Source: Crocinitomicaceae bacterium (GTDB lineage: Bacteria; Bacteroidota; Bacteroidia; Flavobacteriales_D; Crocinitomicaceae). From it: a DNA stretch of 64,000 nt. Location: positions 1 to 64,000 of the forward strand of contig JANRBR010000006.1 of NCBI GenBank assembly GCA_030727405.1, read 5' to 3'. The stretch's first letter is position 1, and the number at the start of each line of letters is the position of its first letter. The translations under genes and the position numbers were made by a program. The notes below the pieces were generated by a model. That model did not search any database and was not told the origin of the DNA. It saw only the letters and a program-made list of their open reading frames with translations. Positions 41,130 to 47,496 of the stretch are shown piece after piece.

Positions 41130-41723
41130 ATGACAGAAGAAATTGCACACCAACAACTGATTGATTACATCAAGGATAAAATCAGCATTACACCTGAACA
41201 CGAGGCTTTAATTAAAAGTCGTTTTCATTTACAGAAGTTAAAGCGAAAAGAGTTTTTCTTGCGGGAAGGCGACGAATGCTATTCGCAGGGATTCATTGTA
41301 GAAGGAACCTTTCGCGTTTTTTTCATCGATCAAAAAGCTTCCGAGCATGTATTGTATTTTGGATTCAAAGATTGGTGGGTAGGAGACATTGCCTCTTTCC
41401 ACAGCCAAGAAAAGACCAACATGAACATCCAAGCGATGGAAGACAGTTCAATTCTTTCCTTTACTAAGGATGATTTGGAATGGCTTTTCATTCAAGTTCC
41501 ACCACTAGAGCGACTTTTCAGAATCATGGCTCAACGCACCTTGGCTGTCCTTCAAAAAAGATTCCTTTTGACCATTTCCGCAAGTGCAGAACAGCGCTTC
41601 TTGGAATTGATCCAACGTCATCCCGGAATTGAACAATTGGTTCCACAGCATCAAATTGCGTCCTATTTGGGGATCTTACCGGAATCCTTGAGTAGAATGA
41701 AGAAGTTGTTGTATAAGAAGTGA
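41130..41723 (+). CDS. Crp/Fnr-family transcriptional regulator
   Basis: The 197-residue protein has a cyclic-nucleotide-binding-like beta-barrel (about 20-115; KRKEFFLREGDECYSQGFIV, HVLYFGFKDWWVGD), a dimerisation helix, and a C-terminal helix-turn-helix (QHQIASYLGILPESLSRMKK). This short-tailed form is very common in Bacteroidota. The effector is unknown. ATG 41130 lies two bases after the methyltransferase stop; the longer frame from 41094 would overlap that gene. Confidence 0.87.
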   Translation: MTEEIAHQQLIDYIKDKISITPEHEALIKSRFHLQKLKRKEFFLREGDECYSQGFIVEGTFRVFFIDQKASEHVLYFGFKDWWVGDIASFHSQEKTNMNIQAMEDSSILSFTKDDLEWLFIQVPPLERLFRIMAQRTLAVLQKRFLLTISASAEQRFLELIQRHPGIEQLVPQHQIASYLGILPESLSRMKKLLYKK

Positions 41724-41733
41724 TGCTAAAGGA

Positions 41734-42012
41734 ATGAAAATAGACGCATTAGAATTAATACCAGACGAACAACCAAAAGACCATTTTCTATTCACACTTT
41801 CAACACCGGCAAGACGCGCTATAGAAAACAATGGCATTACTACATTGGAACAACTTTCCAATTACAGTAAAAAAGAAGTCCTAAAATTTCACGGAATACT
41901 TTGGAAAGAGAATGACCGAGCAATTATCACATTCAAGAGCATGCTGGACATAGAAAATGGAAAAGCAGAATTAGAAGAGATAATTGCGGAATGGATCAGT
42001 TCGACGAAATGA
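41734..42012 (+). CDS. Stand-alone alpha-CTD-like helix-hairpin-helix protein
   Basis: The 92-residue protein has a helix-hairpin-helix domain like the RNA polymerase alpha C-terminal domain: FTLSTPARRAIENNGITTLE, QLSNYSKKEVLKFHGI. It ends with a short acidic helix. Such proteins probably bind DNA; the role is unknown. It follows the Crp-family regulator by 10 bases and may be cotranscribed, so the two could act together. It is the last gene before the repeat-bounded island. Confidence 0.72.
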   Translation: MKIDALELIPDEQPKDHFLFTLSTPARRAIENNGITTLEQLSNYSKKEVLKFHGILWKENDRAIITFKSMLDIENGKAELEEIIAEWISSTK

Positions 42013-42051
42013 AATAATAACAACGGTATTTAAACCGAAAACCTTTCAAAA

Positions 42052-42082
42052 ATTGTGAAAAAGTCCTTTTTTTTCCTTGGTT
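42052..42082 (+). repeat. 31-bp direct repeat, left copy
   Basis: Begins ATTGTGAAAAAGTCC, then eight T, then CCTTGGTT. It matches positions 44157-44187 at 30 of 31 bases (A versus G at the seventh base). The copies are in the same orientation and enclose 2,074 bases with an integrase remnant and two accessory genes. Within the repeat, GAAAA-type and TTTTCC arms could pair weakly. Confidence 0.85.
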
Positions 42083-42277
42083 AAAACAATCTTAGACACA
42101 TATTTATTGAAAAGTGGAACAGAAACTCGATACCTCCAAGAATTACTTGGGCGCAACAACAACAGCATCAAAGCGACAGAGATTTATACTAATATGAATT
42201 GGCAGCTTGGACGAATTTGCGATGAAAATAACTACCTTCGTCAAGCCCGAAAACGTTTTTTCACAATTAAAACATGA
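42080..42277 (+). pseudogene. Tyrosine recombinase (integrase) C-terminal remnant
   Basis: The frame running out of the left direct repeat encodes TYLLKSGTETRYLQELLGRN and ATEIYTNMNWQLGR. This matches the end of Bacteroidota XerC/D-like integrases, where HLLESGTDLRYIQELLGH(x)S and TEIYTHV hold the last His and the nucleophilic Tyr. The Tyr is kept, but the Gly-His is now Gly-Arg and the whole N-terminal and most of the catalytic domain are missing. The protein could not recombine DNA. The remnant overlaps the lipoprotein gene by four bases. Confidence 0.72.
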
Positions 42278-43389
42278 TGCTCAGGAAATTAAGTCTCCTA
42301 ATAATTGCCATTTTTGCTTTGACGATAACATCTTGCAAAATGCAGGAACAAATTCGTACTTATAACAAAATTATAAGTCCAGCAGCTAATGGAGATGTTT
42401 CTCTTACCTTGTTGCGATTGGATAGTTTAATTAAATTCAAAAATCCACTGGTAAATTCTAAGTATCAAAAGACAAAGAAAAAATATATAGTGCGATTTTC
42501 AAGTTACACCGAAAAATCAAAAGCAACATGTAACAATTCTGTGATCAATGATTTGTGTACATTCTATCATGATTATTGGAAAATCAAATTATTAAACACT
42601 CCAGCTAATTGTGATTCAATACTTTACAATAAGCTCTCTCATTATCTTGTCAATAAAAAACTCACCAAATTAAATTTTGAAGAACTTTCAAGTACAATTC
42701 AGGATGACTCGGAACTAACCAAAGTGATTAAAAGTGAAGGGTTTTACTGCAAGTTTATGCTGATCAATGGCATACAGGATTTATTAATTTGGGATAAACA
42801 AAGTCAAGCAGAATATTCAGTTGATTTACCAGAAACTAAAATAGATGTGAATGTAATTTTCATTGAAAGCTATGTATCACGAGGAGTTTCTGACTATGCT
42901 ACCTTCGGCTATTCTCAAATCGGAGGATGGGCGAGCAATAAGGATTCAAGTCTTTTTTGCAACAAAGGGACCTATAAATTGAAATCTGAGAAGTTTCAAA
43001 ACTCCTATTTGAAGCACGAAGCTATTCATTTTGTTGATTTAAAAAATTATCCCAATTTGGAATCTGCAGATTTAGAATACAGAGCTAAACTTATTGAACT
43101 TATATACTGCACGGATAAGACAATTTTCAAAAGAATTGATGAGTTTATTATTGGTGCATCAAATGAAAATCGAGAAAACGCTCACGCTTTTGCAAACTAT
43201 CATTTGATCTGCCAACTATCTAAAAAAATATTCCGTAAGGAATTTGAAGCAGATATTACGAAATGGAAGTCTTTAACATCCGAGGATCTTAACAAAACAA
43301 GTCTAGAGCTTTTCCAGATTAGTTCGGAGATGCTAAAAGCAAATCCAAACCTAAATAGAATTATAGAAAATGTGTATAACTTCAACTAA
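42274..43389 (+). CDS. Lipoprotein with HExxH zinc-metallopeptidase motif
   Basis: The 371-residue protein has a signal ending ITSC (lipidated Cys21). Its only recognisable catalytic feature is HEAIHFVD at 248-255, a zincin HExxH motif with a third acidic ligand possibly among LEYRAKLIEL about 20 residues on (glutamate-zincin type). A bulky stretch (about 30-240) before it is unrecognised. It may be a surface or periplasmic peptidase. Codon use is more AT-rich than in flanking genes, and the gene lies in the repeat-bounded island, both fitting transfer. Confidence 0.65.
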   Translation: MMLRKLSLLIIAIFALTITSCKMQEQIRTYNKIISPAANGDVSLTLLRLDSLIKFKNPLVNSKYQKTKKKYIVRFSSYTEKSKATCNNSVINDLCTFYHDYWKIKLLNTPANCDSILYNKLSHYLVNKKLTKLNFEELSSTIQDDSELTKVIKSEGFYCKFMLINGIQDLLIWDKQSQAEYSVDLPETKIDVNVIFIESYVSRGVSDYATFGYSQIGGWASNKDSSLFCNKGTYKLKSEKFQNSYLKHEAIHFVDLKNYPNLESADLEYRAKLIELIYCTDKTIFKRIDEFIIGASNENRENAHAFANYHLICQLSKKIFRKEFEADITKWKSLTSEDLNKTSLELFQISSEMLKANPNLNRIIENVYNFN

Positions 43390-43410
43390 ATACCTCGGGC
43401 TAAATAACTA

Positions 43411-43427
43411 CAAATGAGAAGCATTTG
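43411..43427 (+). terminator. Small hairpin after the HExxH lipoprotein gene
   Basis: CAAATG (43411-43416) pairs with CATTTG (43422-43427) around AGAAG, then TCTTCT follows. It is 22 bases after the stop. The stem is weak and the T-tract imperfect, so terminator function is only possible. Confidence 0.35.
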
Positions 43428-43444
43428 TCTTCTAGTTGAGTAAC

Positions 43445-43453
43445 TTTAGCGGT
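43445..43453 (+). repeat. Short inverted repeat, left arm (TTTAGCGGT)
   Basis: TTTAGCGGT here is the exact inverse of ACCGCTAAA at 43922-43930. The arms bracket the 135-residue gene, with the left arm 56 bases before its start. Nine bases could match by chance, but the placement at both ends of a single-gene unit is suggestive. Confidence 0.45.
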
Positions 43454-43509
43454 GATTTAAAATCAATACAACTGTTACAAAACAAACAACTCATAACTAA
43501 ACAAGAATC

Positions 43510-43917
43510 ATGACAATGAAAATTTTAATCTTTTTAGGTTTTGTACAATCCATGTTGGGAGTAAAGATTAAAAATGACCTGACAGGAAAATGCTACAAGG
43601 CCCTTGTTGGGGAAAGTTGTGCATTAATGACGAATGGTGGGTGCATGATTTACACTTATCGAATCTTAAATTTTAAAACTGATTCGGTAGTTGTTTCTTA
43701 TCAAGTTACTGCCTATTGTTTGCCAAAAGAAAAAGAGAACAACTATGCTCATTTGAATGATAACTCAACTAAAACATATAAATGGACTGTAAATTCTGAT
43801 ACAATTACTATATGTGGTTTGGATGACTATGGGAAATTAACAATACAAAATTCAACCCTTTTTGGAGAAGACAAATGGACAAAAAGAAAAATCGAATTTA
43901 GTGAAGAATTAAAGTAA
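43510..43917 (+). CDS. Small exported protein, unknown function
   Basis: The 135-residue protein has a short hydrophobic N-terminus (MKILIFLGFVQSMLG), likely a signal sequence. The beta-rich mature part has five cysteines (GKCYKA, GESCAL, GGCMIY, TAYCLP, ITICGL). No family is recognised. The start may be the first ATG or the one two codons on. It stands alone between inverted 9-bp arms inside the island and reads like a gene cassette. Confidence 0.62.
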   Translation: MTMKILIFLGFVQSMLGVKIKNDLTGKCYKALVGESCALMTNGGCMIYTYRILNFKTDSVVVSYQVTAYCLPKEKENNYAHLNDNSTKTYKWTVNSDTITICGLDDYGKLTIQNSTLFGEDKWTKRKIEFSEELK

Positions 43918-43921
43918 AACT

Positions 43922-43930
43922 ACCGCTAAA
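43922..43930 (+). repeat. Short inverted repeat, right arm (ACCGCTAAA)
   Basis: Exact inverse of 43445-43453, five bases after the stop codon of the 135-residue gene. See the left arm for the caveat on length. Confidence 0.45.
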
Positions 43931-44156
43931 TTCCTTTCCCAAAAAGTGAGATTACGTTTCCGCTTGGGAGTTTTGTAGTAACCGAAAACTCCGTTCTATA
44001 ATTTAACTTTTGTACTGAAAAGTCCGCCTTTCAAATAATTGCAAACCCTCGGGAGTAATTAAAAAATAATCCTAAGCTCTTATCTTTCCTTTTTCCATTA
44101 TTTCGACAAGACATAGTCCTTCGAATGACAAGTTTGGATTCAAAACACGTTCTCAT

Positions 44157-44187
44157 ATTGTGGAAAAGTCCTTTTTTTTCCTTGGTT
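44157..44187 (+). repeat. 31-bp direct repeat, right copy
   Basis: Matches 42052-42082 at 30 of 31 positions. It lies 37 bases before the S46 peptidase gene. In this copy TTG (44158-44160) and TTGGTTTG (44181-44188) have a spacing near that of a promoter, so the repeat may overlap the promoter of that gene. Confidence 0.85.
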
Positions 44188-44224
44188 TGAAATCCGTAAA
44201 TTAGCCCTTCAAAAAACTATACAA

Positions 44225-46369
44225 ATGAATACACGTTTAAAAAGTACTTTTTTAGCCATCGCTTTGTTCCTTGGCTTTTTCGTTCGTGCGGACGAAGGAA
44301 TGTGGTTTTTGATGTTCATTGAACGTCTGAATCACAGAGATATGGAGAAGTTGGGATTGCAGTTGACGACGGAAGAGATCTACAGCATCAACCATTCTTC
44401 GATTAAAGATGCCGTTGTTCAATTCAATGGTGGATGTACCGCTGAAATCATTTCCAAAGATGGATTGATCTTAACGAATCACCACTGTGGATATGATGCC
44501 ATCGCTGAATTATCGACTCCAGAGAAAGATTATTTAACCAATGGATTCTGGGCAGCAAACCGCCAAGAGGAATTAAAGCCAAAATCACTATTTGTTCGCT
44601 TTTTCGTTCGCATGGATGATGTCAGCAAACGCATTTTGAGTAAAGTAACGGATCAAATGACCGAAACAGAGCGCAATAAAGCCATCAAAGACGAAATCGC
44701 GTTGATTGAAAAAGAAAACAGCGAAGGTGGAAAATACACGGTAAGTGTTCGTTCTTTCTTCCAAGGAAATGAATTTTACTACTTCGTTTACCAAGATTTT
44801 AAAGACGTTCGTTTGGTAGGTACGCCTCCAAATAGCATTGGTAAATTCGGTGGAGACACAGACAACTGGGAATGGCCGCGTCATACAGGTGACTTCTCGA
44901 TGTTCCGCGTATACGCAGACGCTAGCGGGAATCCAGCTGACTATTCAACAGCAAACGTTCCATTACATCCAAAACACCACTTACCAGTAAACATTAAAGG
45001 AATCCAAGATGGTGATTTCGCAATGATTTTGGGTTACCCTGGAAGAACCAACCGTTGGTTGCCAGCAGGCGGAATTGATCAAAACGTGAAATTCGCTTAT
45101 CCTGCATGGGTAGAGGCTTCAAAAACAAGCATGGATGCGATGAAGAAGTACATGGACAAAGACGACAACGTTCGTTTGAACTATGCTTCTAAATATGCGC
45201 GCATCGCAAATTACTGGAAAAACAGACAAGGAATGATTGATGCCTTGACTCAATTTCAAACAGCAGCGGCAAAAGCGAAAAATGAAGCAAAATTCAATAC
45301 TTGGGCAAATAAACCGGCCAACCAAGCGAAATATGGAACAGTTGTTGAAACCATTAATTCGTTCTACGCTGCTACCAACGAAAAATCACGTCACGACAAT
45401 TACTTGCAAATCGTTTTCCGTTTCTCGGATTATGCAGGAATTAGCCGTGCGTTAGGTGGACAACTTCAAGCATATGCGAAAGCGGATGCTGCAAAACGTG
45501 CGGAGATGAAAGCTGGATTAACTGCTGCCATCAATGAGTTTTTCGAATTGACTTATGTTCCAGCGGAAATCGACATTTTAATCGACGGTTTAAACTTGTA
45601 CGCTCAAAAAGCAGGATACAAATTGGTTCCTGCAGTCGAAGACATGTACAAAGATGGTTCTGTTGCGAACGAAATCAATGCTGCATTTGCAATGTCTGTT
45701 TTAGCATCCAAAGAGCGCATGTTGGCTTTCTTGGAATTACCAAATGAAGCGGCATTGACAAATGATCCATTAATGAAAATGTCTTCTGATATTGTCGCTC
45801 ACTTGATGTTCCGTTCCGAGGAATTAATCAAACTAACAGATGGCTACAACAAATCATACCGATTATTAGTTGCTGGTTTGAGAGAATCGGCTTTAAGTAC
45901 CATACAATACCCAGATGCAAACAGTACCTTGCGTTTAACTTACGGAAATGTGAGCGCATTGCCAGCTGATAAAACAAATGATGCAAAATTCAACTATTAC
46001 ACCACCTTACAAGGAGCGATTAATAAATACAAACCAAATGATGAAGAGTTTGATTTACCTAAGCGCCTAATGGAATTGAATGACGCGAAAGATTTTGGAG
46101 AATACGCTGACAAAGCTGGATATATGCCGGTTTGTTTCTTGACAGACAATGACATCACAGGAGGAAACTCTGGATCACCTGTTTTAAACGGAAAAGGAGA
46201 ATTGATTGGTTTGACCTTCGACGGAAACATTGAAGCAATGGCTGGAGATGTGATCTTTGACACCAAATTGCAAAAAACAATCAATGTAGATATTCGTTAC
46301 GTATTGTTTATCATTGATAAATACGCTGGTGCGAAACACATTGTAGACGAAATGACCATTATTCGTTAA
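44225..46369 (+). CDS. S46 family dipeptidyl peptidase (DPP7/DPP11 type)
   Basis: The 714-residue exported serine peptidase has a signal peptide (to about residue 22) and the S46 triad. The His is in LTNHHCGYDAI near 86, the Asp in the GGDTDNWEWPRHTGDF region, and the Ser is Ser649 in TGGNSGSP. These periplasmic enzymes remove dipeptides from peptides for amino-acid nutrition. The residue 18 after the Ser, which sets P1 specificity, is Gly667 (FDGN). DPP11 has Arg there for acidic P1 residues, so DPP7-like preference for hydrophobic P1 is inferred. Confidence 0.93.
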   Translation: MNTRLKSTFLAIALFLGFFVRADEGMWFLMFIERLNHRDMEKLGLQLTTEEIYSINHSSIKDAVVQFNGGCTAEIISKDGLILTNHHCGYDAIAELSTPEKDYLTNGFWAANRQEELKPKSLFVRFFVRMDDVSKRILSKVTDQMTETERNKAIKDEIALIEKENSEGGKYTVSVRSFFQGNEFYYFVYQDFKDVRLVGTPPNSIGKFGGDTDNWEWPRHTGDFSMFRVYADASGNPADYSTANVPLHPKHHLPVNIKGIQDGDFAMILGYPGRTNRWLPAGGIDQNVKFAYPAWVEASKTSMDAMKKYMDKDDNVRLNYASKYARIANYWKNRQGMIDALTQFQTAAAKAKNEAKFNTWANKPANQAKYGTVVETINSFYAATNEKSRHDNYLQIVFRFSDYAGISRALGGQLQAYAKADAAKRAEMKAGLTAAINEFFELTYVPAEIDILIDGLNLYAQKAGYKLVPAVEDMYKDGSVANEINAAFAMSVLASKERMLAFLELPNEAALTNDPLMKMSSDIVAHLMFRSEELIKLTDGYNKSYRLLVAGLRESALSTIQYPDANSTLRLTYGNVSALPADKTNDAKFNYYTTLQGAINKYKPNDEEFDLPKRLMELNDAKDFGEYADKAGYMPVCFLTDNDITGGNSGSPVLNGKGELIGLTFDGNIEAMAGDVIFDTKLQKTINVDIRYVLFIIDKYAGAKHIVDEMTIIR

Positions 46370-46381
46370 TTCGAATCAACT

Positions 46382-46421
46382 AAAAAAAGCCCCTGACATT
46401 TCTGTCAGGGGCTTTTTTTTT
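46382..46421. terminator. Bidirectional terminator between the S46 gene and aroB
   Basis: GCCCCTGACA pairs perfectly with TGTCAGGGGC around TTTC (46389-46412), with seven A before and nine T after. The two convergent genes end on either side, and the structure has a T-tract in both directions. Confidence 0.93.
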
Positions 46422-47496
46422 ACAAATTGGCTAGTAAGGAGAGGTGAAACAGGGACTCCCCTATTTCTTCTTCCGTCAAATGGTGATCAAAGCTACAGGT
46501 TCCAATTCCTTCCAATAAGCATGAGCGTATTTGTCCGGCAATATTTTTCTTATCTTGATACATCAAAGAGATGACAATGGAAACGTCATCTGCATTCAAT
46601 TCAATCATTGGAAACGAACGAATGATGGTGGATTCGATGTCCTTATATGCTTCCTTAGACAATATTCCACGCTTCATTGAAACAAAGGATTCAGCAATCA
46701 TTCCTAATGCCACCGCATGACCGTGAGAAATGGGTGTTGATTGAAAAAAGTAAGATTCCAATGCGTGTCCAACCGTATGACCAAAATTCAATTTTTTACG
46801 CAGTCCACCTTCAAAAGGGTCTTGTTCAATGATGTTCGTTTTTACTCGAATGGATTGAAGGATCACAGCTTCTTGAATCAATGCTTCCTCCGATTGAATG
46901 TGTCGAATTTCTTCCCAAAGTTTCGCATCGCCAATTAAAGCGTGTTTCAACATCTCAGCGTAGCCGCTGAAAATTTCTTCGGGTGGTAAAGTGGATAAAA
47001 ATCCTGCATCAACGAACACCCTCGCAGGTTGAGTAATGGTTCCCAATTGATTTTTAAATCCATTCAAATCGATGCCATTTTTACCTCCAATGGCTGCATC
47101 AACCATTCCAAGTAGGGTTGTAGGAATGTGAATAAAAGTCAATCCGCGCTTATAAACGGAAGCAATAAATCCGCCCATATCAGTGACCACACCACCACCT
47201 AAGTTGATGACTAAGTCCTTTCGTTCTACCTTATACTCCGTAAATGCTTGCCAGACCTGAAAGCAAACCTCCATGACTTTATTTTCTTCTCCATTCGGCA
47301 ACAACATGATTTCTGCTCGCTCTAATTCTGGAAAACTCGTAATGAGGTATTCCAAACAGCAATCGTGTGTGTTTTCGTCAACAATAATCAGAATCTGCTG
47401 ATTTTCAAATGCTTTCAAGAATGATTGAAATCCACCATTTAAAATGGATCCAATTTCTACCTGGCAATACTTCCCTTCTATTTTCATGCTTTTCAT
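46420..47496 (-). CDS. aroB: 3-dehydroquinate synthase
   Basis: The 358-residue enzyme of the shikimate pathway has the NAD-binding GGGVVTDMGGFIASVYKRGL and IPTTLLGMVDAAIGGKNGID segments, the metal-binding LNFGHTVGHALE, and a C-terminal helical domain. It converts DAHP to 3-dehydroquinate. The start may be 47496 or the Met three codons later (47487). It ends in the shared terminator and is divergent from the proline dehydrogenase gene. Confidence 0.95.
   Translation of the reverse strand: MKSMKIEGKYCQVEIGSILNGGFQSFLKAFENQQILIIVDENTHDCCLEYLITSFPELERAEIMLLPNGEENKVMEVCFQVWQAFTEYKVERKDLVINLGGGVVTDMGGFIASVYKRGLTFIHIPTTLLGMVDAAIGGKNGIDLNGFKNQLGTITQPARVFVDAGFLSTLPPEEIFSGYAEMLKHALIGDAKLWEEIRHIQSEEALIQEAVILQSIRVKTNIIEQDPFEGGLRKKLNFGHTVGHALESYFFQSTPISHGHAVALGMIAESFVSMKRGILSKEAYKDIESTIIRSFPMIELNADDVSIVISLMYQDKKNIAGQIRSCLLEGIGTCSFDHHLTEEEIGESLFHLSLLANL

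Follow-up and report, generated by a model that had tools for sequence, protein, structure and literature searches.

The closest described systems with which the locus reported here can be compared are chromosomal integrons, integrative elements with their attL and attR ends, and homology-facilitated illegitimate recombination, which has already been described (excerpt of PMC3240628). Integrons seem scarce in Bacteroidetes judging by the literature consulted. The phylum Bacteroidetes is listed among integron hosts in a passage of one article (PMC8618304), and an excerpt of another names one complete integron in the Bacteroidetes proper, found in Salinibacter ruber (PMC9024848). In comparable excerpts, integrases were selected by the presence of an additional domain or patch (PMC2426708), an IntI-specific domain is called necessary for integron recombination (PMC9668308), and the gain of the block known as I2 is treated as a key step with a mention of the lack of intermediates (PMC7790495). 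Among the matches listed in the open-licence literature, no title or start of an abstract dealt with integrons without I2 or with integrons of Crocinitomicaceae.

We analysed a stretch of 64,000 nucleotides from a Crocinitomicaceae genome (hereafter "the window") in which an earlier note had proposed an accessory island bounded by direct repeats. The locus comprises the following features:

41130-41723, forward strand: CRP-like regulator gene (Pfam cNMP_binding, E 5e-11), left border of the variable region
41734-42012, forward strand: chimeric ORF with an alpha-CTD-like N half fused to a DUF1801 C half, both parents being separate genes in G015
42052-42082, forward strand: left repeat copy, the probable relic of the upstream half of an S46 promoter/leader, with its single mismatch at 42058; flank and copy align to G067 through 42077
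42083-42096, forward strand: left junction zone with a possible microhomology of TTGGTT (42077-42082) to integrase HWLRH codons
42096-42210, forward strand: decayed C-terminus of a tyrosine recombinase of integron type (integrases of the genus match it by tblastn at 47-64% identity; DNA homology)
42205-42257, forward strand: attC-like site with a 10-bp stem, one extrahelical G and the spacer CCGAAAAC, then GTT
42274-43389, forward strand: lipoprotein gene, putative metallopeptidase and probable first cassette
43393-43455, forward strand: hairpin between the two cargo genes (predicted fold), possibly and weakly a decayed attC, not called by the attC finder
43510-43917, forward strand: small protein gene, the second cassette-like gene (98% in G015, 34% in G142)
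43918-44156, no strand: non-coding right end of the island, ca. 240 bp, 99% identical in G015
44157-44187, forward strand: right repeat copy, the upstream half of the S46 promoter/leader; it precedes S46 in 11 of 11 pattern-matching genomes, four of them with the ACTAGACT allele (27/31)
44188-44224, forward strand: rest of the S46 leader, near-invariant among close relatives, with TAAATTAG at 44197-44204, a -7-like element by the promoter consensus
44225-46369, forward strand: peptidase S46 gene (Pfam PF10459, E 4e-223) with a recombination break point at 44469/44470

With a probability of roughly 0.55, we read the island as a fragment of a Crocinitomicaceae-type integron that entered one-sidedly, through homologous recombination in S46 and an illegitimate join in the leader of the recipient, and the repeat as overlapping leader DNA rather than an att core.

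When re-measured, the two copies of the direct repeat lie where the earlier note had placed them and agree, as it had said, at 30 of 31 bases, with a start-to-start distance of 2105; a repeat search extends the pair to 45 nt at 84% identity. We then searched 86 genomes of the genus for the 28-mer TTGTGGAAAAGTCCTTTTTTTTCCTTGG with up to three mismatches, using the same 28-mer read backwards as control. It was found at 13 places in 11 of these genomes (control: 0), all at the S46 locus: 11 directly before S46 and two as the left copies of the window genome and of G015, which are the only genomes with two copies as opposed to one in the other nine. The remaining 75 genomes without any match have another S46 leader or no leader in the available sequence. 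No match was found at unrelated promoters or terminators in the 86 genomes, and a genome-wide motif was rejected because nothing matched off the S46 locus. Runs of eight T are rarer in the window than expected (23 observed versus 49), and a 20-mer of the repeat has two further weak matches in the window's own genome (2 and 3 mismatches) versus one for the reversed control. The eight-T core and the overlap of the right copy with a promoter might suggest an ordinary regulatory or low-complexity motif that coincides with the island boundary by accident. However, the absence of other sites in the 86 genomes and the alignment of the flanks with empty sites as far as the copy and across it argue against this idea, to which we assign a negligible probability. 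The earlier statement that such a repeat is unlikely to arise by chance thus stands, given its confinement to one locus and the empty control.

The right copy lies just before a conserved S46 gene, as previously described, and judged from the loci compared it is host promoter DNA, namely the upstream half of the S46 promoter/leader. Among relatives, 16 forward-strand loci (some representing the same genome twice) have the CRP-like gene at a distance of 16-70 bp from the S46 start, at locus L102 the distance is about 0.8 kb, and the S46 leader is a different one in those CRP-S46 loci whose leader was inspected. The short spacing in relatives suggests that the variable region opened between CRP and S46 in the species group of the window. 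Among aligned or inspected flanks, the genes to the left of the leader vary, with parDE-type genes in G015, G002, G082, G073, and G083, DUF1801 in the window and G067, and other genes in G036, G072 (same contig as L006), G074, and G079. By eye, every left context ends just before ATTGTGG, and selection for an intact S46 promoter would account for variable contexts that end at one point. Two alleles of the S46 leader, of CCTTGGTT and ACTAGACT types, are seen at 44180-44186 in the window and in G036, G067, G073, and G083, and they do not track the left contexts. Rfam gave sub-threshold hits only, around 46273-46489.

The earlier note had pointed to an uninterrupted junction with a single 31-bp copy as the expected state of relatives, and this junction exists: in G067 for the window, and in G082 and G002 for G015. 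The G067 locus carries the alpha-CTD and DUF1801 genes, a single copy, and then S46 without the island. The left flank of the window aligns to G067 with 81% identity over 183 bp and continues through the copy, and the left flank of G015 aligns to G082 with 93% over 700 bp, again through the copy, and to G002 with 87% over 694 bp. On the right side, copy and S46 align in each of these three genomes, and G015 aligns to G002 in two parts that share 30 bp at the insertion point. Compared to the single-copy relatives, which make up 9 of the 11 leader-bearing genomes, the island is extra DNA, as had been proposed, and its presence in two separate assemblies makes an assembly error unlikely. Neither of the outcomes previously named as speaking against such an island was seen: the nine leader-bearing genomes without the island have a single copy each, and no other promoter in the 86 genomes was found to carry the repeat. 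The gene beside the left copy deserves its earlier label "alpha-CTD-like" for its N half, whereas the C half is DUF1801; a deletion of ca. 377 bp made this ORF from two parent genes that G015 and G067 retain.

The comparison of the window with G015 revealed a mosaic. Mismatches amount to 22 in 163 aligned bases at 42042-42210, 13 in 300 at 42211-42510, 22 in 1959 at 42511-44469 (98.9% identical, with none at 44157-44469), and 39 in 231 at 44470-44700. Within S46, the shared tract breaks off abruptly at 44470: the two genomes do not differ over the initial 245 nt of this gene but show 245 differences in the remaining 1900, and the core DNA of the two genomes is 78-89% identical. At 44270, 8 of 8 other relatives tested differ from both. 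Such near-identity of 42511-44469 next to a divergent remainder of S46 indicates a recent exchange of the island interior together with the beginning of S46 by homologous recombination, with homology seemingly on both sides in the latest exchange, and shows that the island moves in this way. By contrast with the ca. 1% divergence of the interior, the left copy and the integrase fragment differ at 22 of 163 bases and were thus probably present in both lineages before the latest exchange.

These data also bear on a rather unlikely alternative, namely that an ancient island of the species group disappeared from the single-copy relatives when its two 31-bp copies recombined with each other, making their empty sites secondary. 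The left part differs as old DNA would, and a tree of rsmF and crp places G015 with G082 (0.97) and the window with G074 (0.95); single-gene trees disagree with each other and none groups the window and G015 as sisters, so that losses are possible. However, nine single-copy genomes with several left contexts would require repeated precise losses, and the examined stretches of these genomes contain no additional leader relic at 23/31 or better. A history of losses would in any case be compatible with the favoured origin of the repeat itself.

Inside the repeats, the island is more AT-rich than its surroundings, in line with the earlier description (32.4% G+C versus 39.1% for the whole window, 40.6% for S46, and 39.7-42.4% for the measured neighbouring genes). 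The integrase remnant reported before is present, though short, and does not start at the left copy as had been thought: tblastn matches 42098-42199, about 35 C-terminal codons before the tail, and DNA homology sets in 14-22 bp past the repeat, at 42096 for the match reaching furthest left (E 0.001) and at 42104 for the best-scoring one. The closest relatives of this fragment are integron-type tyrosine recombinases of the genus. The lipoprotein indeed carries the HExxH motif noted previously, as HEAIH at residue 248, and its gene occurs in 6 of 240 genomes of the family, comprising the window genome, G015, and four genomes of other genera. DNA homology to these other genera starts at 42262, 42265, 42325, and 42442, in the two closest relatives just past the attC-like hairpin, and the examined stretches near the four lipoprotein relatives contain no relative of four test integrases. 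The second gene, which the earlier note had called cassette-like, may be such a cassette, with weak site signatures: it is flanked by 9-bp TTTAGCGGT/ACCGCTAAA (within one inverted pair of the repeat search), a candidate for complementarity between its start and its own R'' box. Beyond the window, G015, and G142, the other 237 of 240 family genomes contain no match to this gene. For the right end of the island (43918-44156), no convincing relative was found elsewhere among the loci compared, and a search of the three ORFs against PADLOC for a defence function gave no hits at E 0.1.

Direct repeats, a single-copy site in relatives, and an integrase remnant at one end are also what one would expect of a decayed site-specific integrative element whose tyrosine recombinase had joined attP and attB sharing 31 bp in the S46 promoter and which then lost most of its genes and the integrase. 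We nevertheless consider this origin unlikely, and the att-like ends of the earlier note were not borne out: the repeat is host promoter DNA before S46 in 11 of 11 pattern-matching genomes, the fragment is closest to integron-type integrases with relatives that use GTT sites (attC/attI) and not 31-bp cores, and the two ends of the island lack terminal inverted repeats. Moreover, integrase homology sets in shortly past the repeat and the right end holds no further part of the gene, no other 28-mer site exists in the 86 genomes, and no lipoprotein relative was found on the viral contigs and plasmids searched. An integrase gene split by an attP inside itself was rejected because tblastn found no significant match to the N-terminal part elsewhere in the island. 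A transposon with a long target duplication was ruled out by the absence of inverted ends and of any transposase family among the three island ORFs (Pfam scan).

At the end of the integrase remnant, the attC-like site at 42205-42257 is the sole 10/10 match on both strands of the 64-kb window (three others score 9/10) to a pattern that was written after this site had been seen by eye. Its 3' half is identical to an attC half of G034 at 17 of 19 positions, and two attC halves of G054 match it with 3-4 mismatches. A search with this 3' half allowing up to four mismatches found 4 matches in 20 integron loci (one without GTT) versus 0.25 per shuffled set, and nine in 1.40 Mb of other loci, including six in the window and G015 themselves. 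The stem is weaker in G015, the site has no AAC box, and the strict attC finder called no site within the island. Inspection by eye found no attI after the remnant, where the structure typical of most intact integrases in the genus is absent. A looser attC half motif is only some 2.3 times as dense in integron loci as elsewhere (13 per 158 kb versus 35 per 980 kb), and a scan for AAC/GTT stems gave 61 versus 28 shuffled in integron loci and 22 versus 26 shuffled in hotspots. Overall, the cargo, with its integrase C-terminus, attC-like hairpin, lipoprotein gene, and second gene, looks integron-derived, a reading that these sequence comparisons support. Separately, an attC-half-like stretch with 3 mismatches is found in G165 (L196 10322). 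Genes of the parDE type appear as an integron cassette in G020 (L175 4174-4935), beside the leader in G015 and its kin (L115 9973-10513), and near a lipoprotein relative in G165 (L196 10409-10978).

In the one-sided entry that we favour, the incoming DNA would have carried the integron fragment together with an S46 leader and the first part of S46. Homologous recombination within S46 would have anchored it on the right, and on the left, an illegitimate join would have formed inside the recipient's own leader. The upstream half-promoter of the recipient would thereby be left behind as the left copy while the incoming leader serves S46, so that the 31-bp repeat would be an overlap and not an att core. 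We infer that entry was one-sided, that a microhomology may have assisted the left junction, and that the event may have been neutral for S46 expression. As regards the junction, the repeat edge TTGGTT fits the HWLRH codons of the integrase, and CATTGGTTAAGACAC is found in 4 of the 20 relatives compared. In an anchored alignment of the window against 17 integrases, shuffled sequence did as well in 12 of 2000 cases and random stretches did so in 11 of 2000; the result was weaker for G015 (75 of 2000), and an nhmmer prefix test did not support integrase homology reaching into the repeat (56 of 400 shuffled and 90 of 400 random as good). The microhomology is therefore best called suggestive. Against this origin stands that a single import is insufficient, with the left part being older in both lineages, and no donor with this integron beside S46 was found among the genomes searched.

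Both repeat copies end in GGTT, and integrons of the genus have GTT at their junctions, which could point to a secondary G|TT site within the leader, TTGG|TT, at which an integron integrase inserted the cargo directly. Insertion of this kind does not duplicate 31 bp, and it would place an attC end before S46, where the island has a leader copy; with a right junction that does not fit, we regard this route as very improbable.

Intact integrons of relatives offer a standard for the preferred reading as an integron fragment. Of the 240 family genomes, 132 contain an integrase relative at E 1e-40 or better, though these need not all be integron integrases. In the intact integrons, integrase, attI-like site, and cassettes follow each other on one strand in the same order as in the island. 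Integrase and one-stranded cassettes characterize the family loci L167-L186 and L207-L210, with attC sites in part of them and contigs that often end soon after the integrase. By eye, a palindrome-like stretch with GTT at its end lies behind most intact integrases of the genus, though not in L183, L184, and L185, and the sequence beyond it differs from genome to genome; L174 and L175 share the same post-integrase stretch and differ beyond it. The reverse complement of the bases after GTT recurs within 2.5 kb, at up to 2 mismatches in 12 bases, in 6 of 15 loci, compared with 319 of 2600 positions in the control. An attC stem finder applied to 14 loci called eight sites on the integrase strand, none on the opposite strand, and one in shuffled DNA; the eight fall in four loci, and the ten loci without any include several on short contigs. 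In four further loci, all 11 attC-like sites called (6, 4, 1, and 0 per locus) lie behind the integrase, with nothing in front of it or on the opposite strand.

Cassette starts agree with their own R'' at 10/10 positions in L175 and L179 (twice) and at 9/10 in L181 and G054 (twice; the integrase of G054 is broken), these six pairs being hand-picked, and other neighbouring pairs such as the first site of L179 show no agreement. In two longer arrays, the complementarity of neighbours averages 8.2 and 7.7 of 10 versus 6.2 and 5.5 for other pairs. By eye, the G054 integrase (L174 versus L175) carries an internal deletion with a short CAAC match at the point where METNQ and THLLESG are joined, which sets a precedent for truncation by an illegitimate event. 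Among the integrase matches listed, nine from the single genome G094 are copies of 291-300 aa with 38% identity and perhaps represent a single-gene element that amplifies.

Judged from their sequences, the integron integrases of the relatives lack the IntI-specific block (I2). Those of intact relatives score 194-215 bits with TIGR02249 (5 of 5 below the cut-off of 265), one has 21 residues where IntI4 (2A3V) has 63, and the spacing from KDR to HxLRH is 61-62 in the 18 loci, out of 20, where both motifs were detected. In eight genomes, no match rose above the IntI cut-off, and the five of them with an intact integrase were unmatched at ca. 180-236, in a search that splits matches, was passed by 0 of 14 control genomes, and had no positive control. 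Tentatively, and a little short of even odds, the island may be debris of a family-wide integron class in which an integrase without I2 serves canonical attC arrays, and the leader copies would let cargo swap between species at any S46 locus by ordinary recombination. If true, these would be natural integron integrases without I2, a state so far approached by laboratory evolution, and integrons of this kind in Crocinitomicaceae would make the origin of integron integrases directly testable; the unusual integrons may matter more than the repeat. The island itself suggests that integron cargo can outlive its integron, and copied promoter halves would make integron scrap resemble an att-bounded element and may aid its passage between species.

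How does the island compare to known systems? With integrative elements bounded by attL and attR, such as prophages, ICEs, and IMEs, it shares direct repeats around its cargo and a single-copy empty site, but its repeat is the host's own promoter half and its integrase is truncated and of another kind. Homology-facilitated illegitimate recombination is alike in combining homology on one side, here the tract end in S46, with a non-homologous join on the other; it is unlike in that the left join of the island is old and decayed with a suggestive microhomology, and that the latest exchange seems homologous on two sides. Compared to a chromosomal integron with IntI, attI, and attC cassettes, the island lacks an attI, a clear second attC, and a live integrase, and the integrases of its relatives seem to be without the IntI-specific block, a feature for which the island's own fragment is too short to be judged. 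However, it resembles such integrons in its integrase remnant, its one attC-like site, and its cassette-type cargo on one strand, as do its intact relatives in the complementarity of cassette start and R''.
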